Shown here: in pieces, positions 16,405-20,300 of the stretch | Layout of the letters: every line of letters begins with the position of its first letter | Numbering within the stretch: the stretch's first letter is position 1 | Source of the DNA: Natrinema versiforme | GTDB lineage: Archaea; Halobacteriota; Halobacteria; Halobacteriales; Natrialbaceae | Reading direction: 5' to 3' | Assembly (NCBI RefSeq): GCF_005576615.1 | Contig: NZ_CP040330.1 | Span: forward strand, 2,852,001-2,916,000 | DNA length: 64,000 nucleotides | Notes under the pieces: model-generated | The model's database searches: none | The model's input: only the letters and a program-made list of their open reading frames with translations | Told to the model about the DNA's origin: nothing | Program-made: the position numbers and the translations under genes

Positions 16405-17304
16405 TCAGGCCTCGAGAATCTCGTCCTCGTCGGCCTCGGGGACGACGAGAGAGCCGTCGAGGACGGTCACGCCACGGCCGCCGACCCGCACCCCGTCGTC
16501 GAGGCGAACCCGGACGATCCCCGGCCGGTCGACGTAGTGGCCCTGCTCGAGTCGAAGTTCCTCGGGGAGGTCGTCGTCGAACGCGCCGAAGCGGTCGAGG
16601 TACGCGCCGACGGCCCCGCTCGCGGTGCCGGTGACCGGGTCCTCCGGGACGCCGGCACCCGGCGCGAACATGCGGCCGTGGACCGTCGACTCGGCCTCGA
16701 GCGCGTCGAAGGTAAAGAGGTAGACGCCCGCGGCGTCGACCGCATCGGTGAGGGCTTCGATCGCGGCCATATCGGGCGCTGCGTCGCCGACATCCGAGAG
16801 GTACGTGATCGGTGCGATCAGGAACGGCAGACCGGTCGAGGACACCGCCAGCGGGATATCGGCGCTCGCGCCCTCGAGGGCGGCCCGATCGACGCCGAGT
16901 GCGTCGGCGACGCGATCGTAGCCCACGTCGATCTCGCGGATCGTCGGCTCGTCCTGTGTCATCCAGACCGTGCCGTCGTCTGCGACCTCGATCTCGAGCG
17001 TCCCGACGTTCGTCTCGAGGGTCGTCGTTCCCGTCGCGAGGCCCTCCTCGTGGAGGTGTGCGAAGGTGCCGATCGTCGCGTGGCCACAGAGGTCGACCTC
17101 CTGTGTCGGCGTGAAATAGCGAATCCGTCGGTCGGCGGTCTCGCTCGAGCGGAGAAAGGCCGTCTCGCTGACGGCCATCTCGGCGGCGATCGCCTGCATC
17201 TGGTCGTCCGAGAGGCCGTCCGCGTTCGGCACGACCCCCGCCGGGTTCCCGGTGAGCGGTTCGTCGGTGAAGGCGTCGACCTGCAAGACCCGAATCGTCT
17301 CCAT
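16405..17304 (-). CDS. PhzF-family isomerase/epimerase-like protein
   Basis: A 299-residue PhzF/diaminopimelate-epimerase-fold protein with two pseudo-repeated lobes. The N-lobe has VDAFTDEPLTGNPAGVVPNA and the catalytic-Glu segment MAVSETAFL. The middle contains RYFTPTQEVDLCGHATIGTFAHL, a PhzF hallmark. The C-lobe has RMFAPGAGVPEDPVTGTASGAVGAYL, the matching anion-binding loop. PhzF itself isomerises a phenazine precursor, but most archaeal homologues are of unknown substrate and no phenazine genes adjoin. The start at 17304 begins the conserved VLQVDAF strand. Confidence 0.9.
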   Translation of the reverse strand: METIRVLQVDAFTDEPLTGNPAGVVPNADGLSDDQMQAIAAEMAVSETAFLRSSETADRRIRYFTPTQEVDLCGHATIGTFAHLHEEGLATGTTTLETNVGTLEIEVADDGTVWMTQDEPTIREIDVGYDRVADALGVDRAALEGASADIPLAVSSTGLPFLIAPITYLSDVGDAAPDMAAIEALTDAVDAAGVYLFTFDALEAESTVHGRMFAPGAGVPEDPVTGTASGAVGAYLDRFGAFDDDLPEELRLEQGHYVDRPGIVRVRLDDGVRVGGRGVTVLDGSLVVPEADEDEILEA

Positions 17305-17392
17305 ACGACGTGGGTCGGGCGACCGGCGTATGAATCCTCGGTCCATCGGTCGAGCGACCGGCGGCTCGGCCCCCGCCGGTCGGTCGGCTGCG

Positions 17393-18727
17393 TTACAACC
17401 CGCCGATCCAGTCGGCGAGATCGGTGACGACCTCCTCGGCGACGTTGTTACGAACGGCGTAGGCGAACTCCACGGACTCTCCCTCGCCGGGCATGAACAG
17501 GTGATTGAGCCCGTCGTAGGTCTCGAAGTCCGCCGCCGAGTCCCCCTCGAGTTCGGACTGCCACCGCTCGAGGTCGTCGGCGGCGCTGACCTGAAAGTCG
17601 CGTGTCCCCTGCAGGAAAAACAGGGGTGCCTCGATCTCCGCAGCGGTCCCGAGATGGTCGTAGGACTCGAGGCTCTGCCAGAACGCGCCGGGTTTGTTGA
17701 GCAGCGTTTCGTCCGCCTCGTACTCTCCCGATCGAACTCGTTCGATCTCGTCGGTCCAGGTTTCGTAGACGCTCGTCAAATCTCCCCACTCCTGTGACCC
17801 GACCGACGCCTTGTGCTCGAGTTGCTCGAGGGTCAGGTCGTGGAACGGCCGCGCCGGCGCGGCGAGGCCGACGACGCCGGCGAGATTCCCGTCTCGAGCC
17901 GCGATCCGCGGCGCGGCCCGTCCGCCGAGGCCGTGGCCGACGACGGCGATCCGATCCGGGCCGACGCCCTCGACGCTCCGCAGGCGCTCGATCGCGACGA
18001 GCGCGTCGTCGACGGTGACGCGGTCGAGGGTGTACTCGGTGCCCGTGACCTCGCAGGCGGGGACGCGCTTGTCGTATCGAAGGGTCGCGACGCCCTGCGT
18101 GGCGAGCCCCTCGGCGAGGTCCGTAAACAGCTGGGTGCCGCCGCGGGCGGTGTCGGCGGTCACCGGTCCGGAATCGTGGACCAGCACGACCCCGGGGACG
18201 CCGTCGCCGTCGGCCGGCGTCGTGACGGTACCGGGGAGCGAACAGCCCTCGACCGAGAGCGTCAGGTCCGTCTCAGTGACCGCACTCGAGTCGACGTACG
18301 ACGGCCGTTCGTACTCGTCGGTGACCCCGCAGTCGACGATCCGCGATTCGGTGTCGACGACGACGCGGCAGTCGTGATCGCCGCGGGCGAATGACAGCGT
18401 CAGATCGACCGCCGACGCCCCGTCGCCCGTCGTCACGCTCGTGTCGGCGATTTCCTCGAACGAGCCGCCGACCGCGCCGTACCCCATCCAGAGCCGCTCG
18501 AGACGGCCGGGGTCACCGTATCGGTCCTGTTCGCTCGAGACGAATCGTTCGCTCGCCCGTTCGAACTCCCCGTTCGCGAGGTTCTCGACGAACGCCGTCG
18601 CGACGGTTTCGTCGCTCGTCGGGCCGCTTTCGTCGTCCGTGTCGGCGAGCAGGTCGGCACAGCCGGCCGCTGCCGACGCCGTCGCCGTCGATACCGCCGC
18701 CAGTACGGTCCGCCGTCGAGGTGCCAT
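17393..18727 (-). CDS. Tat-exported alpha/beta-hydrolase lipoprotein with Gly at the nucleophile position
   Basis: A 444-residue predicted lipoprotein. The signal is MAPRRRTVLAAVSTATASAAAGC (Tat, lipobox Cys23). Residues 40-150 resemble a DUF3887-type domain (VENLANGEFERASERF). Residues 155-440 form an alpha/beta hydrolase with an oxyanion strand (GVVLVHDSGPV) and a nucleophile elbow. The elbow reads VVGHGLGG, so Gly266 replaces the expected Ser of GHSLGG. The acid (LQGTRDFQV, Asp377) and His (GLNHLF, His409) remain. TATA-like CTTTATCC sits about 27 bp upstream of ATG 18727. It may be inactive or a binding protein, or the change may be a single-base error. Confidence 0.85.
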   Translation of the reverse strand: MAPRRRTVLAAVSTATASAAAGCADLLADTDDESGPTSDETVATAFVENLANGEFERASERFVSSEQDRYGDPGRLERLWMGYGAVGGSFEEIADTSVTTGDGASAVDLTLSFARGDHDCRVVVDTESRIVDCGVTDEYERPSYVDSSAVTETDLTLSVEGCSLPGTVTTPADGDGVPGVVLVHDSGPVTADTARGGTQLFTDLAEGLATQGVATLRYDKRVPACEVTGTEYTLDRVTVDDALVAIERLRSVEGVGPDRIAVVGHGLGGRAAPRIAARDGNLAGVVGLAAPARPFHDLTLEQLEHKASVGSQEWGDLTSVYETWTDEIERVRSGEYEADETLLNKPGAFWQSLESYDHLGTAAEIEAPLFFLQGTRDFQVSAADDLERWQSELEGDSAADFETYDGLNHLFMPGEGESVEFAYAVRNNVAEEVVTDLADWIGGL

Positions 18728-18854: not shown

Positions 18855-20300
18855 TCAGTCGTCTCCCGGTTCCTCGAGCGAGTCGGCGCGGTCGTGGTCC
18901 GCCATCGGCGGCAGCTCGCCCGACTCGTGGGTCCCCACCGGCGGCCGGTTGACCTCGGCGGCGGACGAGGACTCGAGGTCGGTTCGGTCCTCGCCCTCGA
19001 TGGCCGCCATCTCGCCGTCTTCGCGTGCGTCCTGATCGATCCGCATCGAACAGAACTCGGCCCCGCACATCGAGCAGAAGCGGGCCTCCTTGTAGTTGTC
19101 TCCGGGCAGGGTCTGGTCGTGGAACGACCGGGCGCGGTCGGGATCGAGCGCGAGTTCGAACTGCTCGCGCCAGTCGAATTCGTATCGTGCTTCGGAGAGC
19201 GCGTCGTCCCAGTCGCGCGCGCCGGGGCGTTCGTTCCCCACGTCGCCGGCGTGGGCGGCGATCCGGTAGGCCGCGAGGCCGTCGCGAACGTCCGCCTCCT
19301 CGGGGAGCCCGAGGTGCTCCTTCGGGGTGACGTAACACAGCATCGCGGCACCGGCCTGGGCTGCCATCGCCGCACCGATGGCGCTCGTGATGTGGTCGTA
19401 GCCCGGCGCGATGTCGGTCACCAGCGGCCCGAGGACGTAGAAGGGTGCGCCGTCGCAGACCTCCTGCTGGCGCTCGACGTTCTCGGCGACCTTGTGCATC
19501 GGGACGTGGCCCGGCCCCTCGACCATCACCTGTACGCCGTGGTCCCAGCCGACGCGGGTCAATTCGCCCAGCGTGTCGAGTTCCGCGTACTGGGCCTCGT
19601 CGCAGGCGTCGGCCAGACAGCCGGGTCGCAGGCTGTCCCCGAGACTAAAGGTGACGTCGTGCTCGGCGAAGATTTCACAAATCTCGGGGAAGACCTGATA
19701 GAACGGGTTCTGATCGCCGTTCGCTTCCATCCACTTGGCCATGATCGAGCCACCCCGCGAGACGATCCCCGTCTTCCGGCCGTCGGTCAGCGGCAGGTGC
19801 TCGGCGAGGATCCCCGCGTGGATCGTCATGTAGTCGACGCCCTGCTCGGCCTGTTTCTCGACGACCTCGAGCAGCAGATCGGTCGTGATCTCTTCGGGGC
19901 TGCCTGCCTGCTTGACCGCCTCGTACAGCGGCACCGTGCCCAGCGGCACCGGCGAGTGCTCGACGTGGGCCTCCCGGATCTCGTCTAAATCGCTGCCCGT
20001 TCCGAGGTCCATCACCGTGTCCGCGCCGTAGTGAACCGCGGTGTGGAGCTTCTCGAGTTCCGTCTCGAGGTCGCTGGTCGTCTCGCTGTTGCCGATGTTC
20101 GCGTTGACCTTCGTCGCGAACTCGCGGCCGATGATCATCGCGTCGAGCGCGTCGTGGTTGACGTTCGCCGGAATGACTGCCTGTCCGTCGGCGACCTGCT
20201 CGCGGACGAACTCCGGATCGCGGTTCTCTCGCTCGGCGACGCGTTCCATCTCGGGCGTGACCGTCCCTTCACGGGCGGCCTGAATCTGCGTCTGCGCCAT
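18855..20300 (-). CDS. thiC: Phosphomethylpyrimidine synthase ThiC
   Basis: A radical-SAM-like enzyme that rearranges aminoimidazole ribotide into HMP-phosphate for thiamine synthesis. All ThiC landmarks are present in 481 residues: [18 protein letters not shown] near 42-59, DLGTGSDL near 98-105, [12 protein letters not shown] near 160-171, [11 protein letters not shown] near 181-191, [11 protein letters not shown] near 218-228, and [10 protein letters not shown] near 261-270. The C-terminal cluster motif is CSMCGAEFC (Cys409, Cys412, Cys417). A 55-residue acidic tail follows. The gene is leaderless, with a TATA box 28 bp upstream, so no TPP riboswitch can precede it. Regulation is expected at the promoter. 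Confidence 0.97.

Follow-up and report, generated by a model that had tools for sequence, protein, structure and literature searches.

Three adjoining genes on the minus strand occupy the part of the window considered here, the window being the whole analysed stretch of 64,000 nucleotides from a Natrinema versiforme genome (Table 1). The middle gene, here called est, encodes an EstD-like protein and lies between thiC upstream and a PhzF-like gene downstream. Visual inspection of the N-terminus of the window protein revealed a twin-arginine stretch and a lipobox (MAPRRRTVLAAVSTATASAAAGC), and most syntenic orthologues begin with the same pattern. An alternative upstream GTG start is possible (450 amino acids); the ATG at 18727 agrees with the orthologues. 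An N. versiforme protein was among the closest named relatives, with 91% identity to the window protein. The PF01738 match covered residues 171–287, and the protein has the domain order of EstD, in which DUF3887 is followed by the hydrolase domain. The NCBIfam EstD model NF041096 aligned at 252.7 bits (window residues 40–442 against model positions 22–418 of 421), below its equivalog cut-off of 600 bits, which two Ser-type relatives also missed (L008, 330.4 bits; L014, 432.9 bits). The window protein is an orthologue of the EstD-type esterases, and its motif predicts that it is exported and anchored at the surface.

Table 1. Features of the est locus, with coordinates counted from the first nucleotide of the window
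Feature	Position	Strand	Basis or remark
thiC, upstream neighbour	18855..20300	–	Pfam ThiC_Rad_SAM, 621.6 bits
EstD-like exported protein (export predicted), CDS	17393..18727	–	444 amino acids plus stop; the range in the sequence-only reading takes in the stop codon; ORF without stop, 17396–18727
Putative N-terminal Tat-type (RRR) signal and lipobox AAGC, Cys23	18659..18727	–	Motif recognised by eye
DUF3887 domain, residues 43–131	18335..18601	–	Pfam PF13026, 34.3 bits against a cut-off of 31.8
Alpha/beta hydrolase domain, approximately residues 151–444	17396..18277	–	Pfam DLH PF01738; AlphaFold2 model; match to PET46 (8b4u)
Asp185 codon (HGSGP to HDSGP; oxyanion-loop Gly replaced)	18173..18175	–	Alignment of orthologues
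Gly266 codon, GGC, nucleophile Ser position	17930..17932	–	Translation and alignment
Asp377 codon, catalytic acid position, retained	17597..17599	–	Alignment
His409 codon, catalytic base position, retained	17501..17503	–	Alignment
PhzF-like gene, downstream neighbour	16405..17346	–	Pfam PhzC-PhzF, 232.2 bits

Paired substitutions at the active site

A sequence-only reading of this gene had reported glycine in place of the catalytic serine, with the acid and base retained. The 444-residue translation bears this out: the elbow reads VVGHGLGG, in which GHGLGG begins at residue 264 and thus places Gly266 at the nucleophile position, and both Asp377 and His409 are present. The same reading had derived the glycine from a single base change, AGC to GGC, and six syntenic orthologues from the family that have Ser indeed show AGC or AGT at this codon, so one base change is enough. 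Such a one-base difference would also fit a sequencing or assembly error in the window genome, an option that had been left standing and was to be recognised by serine in all related strains. The opposite was seen, since 25 of the 26 gene-bearing genomes of the genus have Gly. Moreover, the family orthologues include 32 Gly rows (31 distinct sequences, 31 genomes), which encode the residue by GGC, GGT, GGA or GGG. These orthologues rule out the error, whose probability is practically nil, and Gly266 is a real evolved change.

The substitution has a partner. In the loop after beta3, the Gly forms read HDSGP where the Ser forms have HGSGP, corresponding to Gly185Asp. The 134 aligned rows, among which three row pairs were identical or more than 99% alike, comprised 101 with Gly185 and Ser266, 32 with Asp185 and Gly266 and one with Gly185 and Gly266. 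Asp185 was thus found in 32 of 33 Gly rows vs none of 101 Ser rows. The sole Gly185/Gly266 row (L107, genome G028) has Gly266 without Asp185, and Asp185 is therefore not indispensable. Three sequences were left out of the 134, namely L018 (Ser; wrong frame of a cut piece), L085 (Ser) and the broken copy L071 of genome G022, whose two pieces show HDVGP (loop) and GHGLGG (elbow), so that it too has Asp at 185. A further 33 loci, many of them in genomes that had been counted before, and another 20 loci were all of the Ser type, apart from L237, the gene also listed as L176; wherever the loop was visible, these Ser rows had Gly at 185. Eight bacterial relatives showing both sites (L009, L012, L014–L017, L019 and L020) likewise combined Ser with Gly185. 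Five further matches stand outside these counts, one each in G196, G209, G241 and G309 and a second copy in G227. The sequence-only reading had also taken the glycine for a possible loss of hydrolase activity in a protein that keeps its fold. Loss of classical serine-esterase chemistry would still be the natural reading, but the account was incomplete, as it missed the paired Gly185Asp.

The remaining polar residues of the site were largely kept. Among the 33 Gly rows, Asp377 was found in all, His184 in 32 (L176 has Gly) and His409 in 31, with Arg in the other two, which belong to genus g23. The Arg409 copies, L064 and L065, have a diverged acid motif (RDTRAT vs RDFQVS), and L060 and L061 share this diverged motif with His409 kept. 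The elbow reads GLGLGG or GLGVGG in L058, L059, L062 and L063, where His265 is lost too. At residue 270 (codon 17918–17920), four positions after the nucleophile, Arg occurs in 20 of 33 Gly rows vs 4 of 83 Ser rows; Arg270 could pair with Asp185, but the residue elsewhere is T, L, M or W. No newly fixed Ser, Cys or Thr nucleophile was seen in all Gly forms, position 190 being Thr in 26 of 32, Ser in two and Asp in four.

The conservation of His184 and Asp377, together with the new carboxylate at 185, would be compatible with a metal or cation site in which Asp185, His184, His409 and Asp377 bind a divalent metal in a hydrolytic or structural role. However, two copies have Arg409 and L176 has Gly at 184, and neither metal ions nor EDTA are reported to have a significant effect on EstD (PMC6622161), making such a site very unlikely.

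Structural placement of residues 185 and 266

The AlphaFold2 model of the window protein had a mean pLDDT of 87.5 and a pTM of 0.86, and its confidence drops to block means of 72 at residues 181–190 and 67 at residues 191–200, below the remainder of the domain. A fold search with the model returned Z scores of at least 8 for 1000 of 1000 aligned chains, and the predicted structure has the canonical alpha/beta hydrolase fold with its elbow after beta5. Esterases of the PET46 type matched the hydrolase domain best, with PET46 itself (8b4u; Z 26.9, rmsd 2.9, 249 aligned) and LJ0536 (3pf8; Z 25.0, rmsd 2.8, 240 aligned) among the top matches. Both matches begin at model residue 148–151, past the DUF3887 part, and no structure combining DUF3887 with a hydrolase was among the fold matches listed. 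Searching with a Ser-type model gave similar esterases.

In the phmmer alignment, Gly266 corresponds to Ser115 and Asp185 to Gly38 of PET46. The oxyanion hole is reported to be formed by the amides of Phe39 and Met116 in PET46 (PMC10495362) and by those of Phe34 and Gln107 in LJ0536 (PMC3158066). Because Gly38 adjoins the oxyanion residue Phe39, residue 185 appears placed to face the vacated serine site.

Distribution of Gly and Ser forms

The est gene was present in 26 of 29 genomes of the genus, comprising 24 with an intact Gly form, one with a frame-broken Gly form (G022) and one with a Ser form (G004). Among the other 25 gene-bearing genomes, thiC was found in the fetched stretch of 23 and the PhzF-like gene in that of all 25, lying 14–76 bases away in 22 genomes and 938, 1470 and 2575 bases away in three. 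In the remaining genomes of the genus, G007, G008 and G009, est is missing and thiC and the PhzF-like gene adjoin. The thiC and PhzF-like matches of L239, L240 and L241 (G008, G007 and G009) are separated by 17, 17 and 24 bases. The absence of est in G007, G008 and G009 is a clean loss, and the gene, lost in 3 of 29 genomes, is therefore not essential. No second complete EstD relative was found in 24 of the 26 gene-bearing genomes of the genus (E 0.001 in the genus, 1e-20 in the family), and G017 and G027 carry a Ser-type paralogue in addition.

Family-wide, a relative at E ≤1e-20 was found in 53 of 125 genomes. Gly orthologues lie between thiC and the PhzF-like gene in three further genera (seven genomes: three in g19, one in g8 and three in g23), and Ser orthologues occupy the same locus in g5, g10, g21 and G004. 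One g23 genome carries two identical Gly copies. These identical proteins, L060 and L061 of genome G101, have the same neighbours and lie one on each of two contigs; whether this is a true duplication is uncertain because the contamination estimate is 13%.

Several copies depart from the common pattern. At the same locus in G004, L070 is of the Ser/Gly185 type and 57% identical to the window protein, and the flanking genes of this genome fall deep within the Gly-bearing genus in a quick tree. The gap between L070 and thiC is approximately 2.5 kb, and its nearest relatives, L003 and L007, are also without thiC close upstream (absent from 2 kb upstream of L003 and 4 kb upstream of L007). A foreign Ser-type copy thus appears to have taken the place of the original gene in G004. 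The Gly copy of G022 (Haloterrigena sp. H1; L071/L021) has Asp185 and a frame broken near residues 204–212, which may be a real mutation or an assembly error. Genome G010 holds, approximately 2.2 kb from its intact gene, a degraded second EstD-like copy in fragments with stops (L002 7509–7831 / L051). Rows with a GHSQGG elbow (L083–L093 and similar) form a separate Ser-type branch with a changed acid motif, and most of them lack a signal sequence and start right at the DUF3887 region; they are possibly cytosolic paralogues.

Number of origins

The Asp185/Gly266 pair also occurs in another haloarchaeal family, where L176/L237 of genome G364 reads VGDDGP at the loop and GHGLGG at the elbow. The neighbourhood there is similar, with the gene order phosphoribosyltransferase-like, one unrelated gene, est, PhzF-like and PEP-utilising enzyme, the neighbour names being carried over from window counterparts (Pfam), and no thiC was seen at this locus. 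No match to L176 at E 1e-75 was found in the other 145 genomes searched of its family. In a 63-row tree built with columns 185 and 266 removed, a single clade of all 33 Gly rows was rejected (p-AU 3.75e-11), although the test leans on the model at L176, since this is a single sequence on a long branch (0.96). A single origin of the 32 family Gly rows was not rejected (p-AU 0.129), and we therefore make no claim beyond two origins. On the best tree, parsimony required four changes for Gly266 and five for Asp185, and a quick flanking-gene tree grouped one Gly genus with Ser genera, but neither result raises the supported number. An independent-pairs correlation test could draw on two pairs whose branches have support; both point the expected way, but two are too few for significance. 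At least two origins of Gly266, each with Asp185, are thus supported.

Selection and evolutionary rate

Across the 32 family Gly copies, changes counted on the gene tree were nine synonymous and no non-synonymous at codon 266, five and one at codon 185, three and none at codon 377, and one and one at codon 409. The means per site over 409 sites were 3.88 synonymous and 4.59 non-synonymous changes, and 64 of the 409 sites were without non-synonymous change. Codons 266 and 185 are under purifying selection. In 83 Ser forms (the Ser rows minus 18 GHSQGG-type rows), the only positions at least 90% conserved whose Ser-form residue fell below 75% in the Gly forms were 185, 190 and 266. With looser cut-offs, seven further positions differed (166, 168, 198, 206, 238, 310 and 378), several of them already altered in close Ser forms. 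Arg217, Tyr218, Arg221, Gly264 and Asp377 were kept in the Gly forms.

In the genus, est evolves faster than both neighbours: its omega, approximated by a fast codon-model search with kappa given as 1.00, was 0.25, whereas the PhzF-like gene had 0.095 and thiC 0.052. The median est/phzF distance ratio was 2.32 (24 Natrinema), 1.97 (3) and 1.77 (3) in the Gly groups, 2.73 in the nearest Ser group (4, from g10 and g21), and 2.72, 1.71 and 1.01 in three other Ser groups, so that the Natrinema Gly group exceeded two of the four Ser groups. Neither the codon counts nor the ratio of the nearest Ser group lent support to relaxed decay.

These results bear on a simple loss of function, in which catalysis would have become dispensable, glycine fixed through relief of strain at the elbow, and Asp185 carried along as a passenger. 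Glycine does favour the strained backbone geometry of a nucleophile elbow, est is missing or frame-broken in four genomes of the genus (three and one, respectively), and its omega lies above that of both neighbours. However, purifying selection holds Gly266 and Asp185, the pair recurs in another family, evolution relative to the PhzF-like gene is not faster in the Gly groups than in the nearest Ser group, and, besides the pair, only position 190 was relaxed among the sites at least 90% conserved in the Ser forms. We thus consider simple loss improbable. On balance, the Gly-type pattern has the appearance of a rewiring of two residues under selection, and not of decay.

Discussion

The pairing with Gly185Asp, the origins numbering at least two and the purifying selection on the remaining active-site residues point to a replaced function instead of a simple dead enzyme. 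We propose, with a probability of roughly one half, that the window protein is a non-hydrolytic, ligand-binding pseudo-esterase in which Asp185 stands in for the serine/oxyanion site and has His409 as its partner. In this scenario, Ser266Gly at the elbow and Gly185Asp at the residue just before the oxyanion-hole amide would be linked changes that were then kept by selection. Having lost the serine side chain and gained a carboxylate in the oxyanion loop, the protein would no longer form the classical acyl-enzyme. Asp185 would take the space of the serine side chain and of the oxyanion, giving a negative charge there, and, judging from the expected geometry, would be ion-paired with residue 409 (protonated His, or Arg in two copies), backed by Asp377. 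The surface-anchored pseudo-esterase would then use the conserved EstD pocket to bind a ligand, which would probably be a small molecule of cationic or hydroxylated character instead of an ester. Arg is the sole substitute for His409 in the Gly forms (2/33), suggesting that positive charge is important next to Asp185 and Asp377.

The full conservation of Asp377 and the near-full conservation of His409 exceed what a mere binding protein needs and would fit altered catalysis too, leaving room for a catalytic use of Asp185. Asp185 may be a relocated catalytic carboxylate that enters the space of Ser266 and acts, with the His409–Asp377 dyad, as nucleophile or general base. The reaction would then be of a new type, with the carboxylate located in the beta3 loop and not at the beta5 elbow. 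In line with this possibility, no reactive side chain other than Asp185 became newly fixed together with Gly266 in nearly all Gly rows, and the pair evolved at least twice. Moreover, the residue before the second oxyanion residue often takes part in ligand binding in this fold (PMC7034887). Nevertheless, the Gly rows with Arg409 (two) and Gly185 (one) imply that neither partner is strictly required, and Asp185 adjoins the oxyanion amide, not the elbow apex. We therefore treat the relocated carboxylate as a tentative reading, conceivable yet on the unlikely side. A transplantation of the reactive group, with Asp185 in the oxyanion loop after beta3 taking over from Ser266 in the beta5 elbow, would represent a new catalytic arrangement in this fold and is a doubtful proposition. 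If true, it would make this a serine hydrolase whose nucleophile or base was moved by a two-residue swap, at least twice in haloarchaea.

Natural losses of the nucleophile are known in the alpha/beta hydrolase fold; this one is set apart by the specific second residue, the recurrence in another family and a site that is mostly intact. The question thus opened is what a hydrolase fold does without its nucleophile, and whether a carboxylate can replace it. Since Ser-type and Gly-type orthologues lie at the same chromosomal place, including one Ser-type species within the genus, a direct experimental comparison is possible. The results also call for caution in annotation, as such proteins can be named 'alpha/beta fold hydrolase', as is a Natronorubrum bangense copy. 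Among the open PubMed Central papers listed for natural Ser-to-Gly pseudo-hydrolases and switched nucleophiles, we found no report of the Gly266 and Asp185 pair.

Compared with known systems, the window protein resembles EstD of Thermotoga maritima in domain order along almost the whole model. EstD represents bacterial lipolytic family X, has a GHSLG elbow and was 96% inhibited by PMSF (PMC6622161). In contrast, the window protein has GHGLG and an Asp in the oxyanion loop. The GxRDYQV and NHLFMP motifs, which supply Asp and His, are common to most of the bacterial relatives examined, and Asp377 and His409 are kept in the window protein. PET46 and LJ0536, of the feruloyl/cinnamoyl esterase type, share its elbow and oxyanion-loop positions, but both have a catalytic Ser where it has Gly266. 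NDRG3 has replacements at all three triad positions and a pocket blocked by helices (PMC7022630). The window protein is like NDRG3 in keeping the fold and losing the nucleophile; unlike NDRG3, it keeps the Asp, the His and most of the pocket and gains an Asp. Neuroligins are a further case of an alpha/beta hydrolase fold without a catalytic nucleophile. Haloalkane dehalogenases and epoxide hydrolases carry an Asp nucleophile at the beta5 elbow, whereas the window protein has Gly at that position and its new Asp in the beta3 loop.
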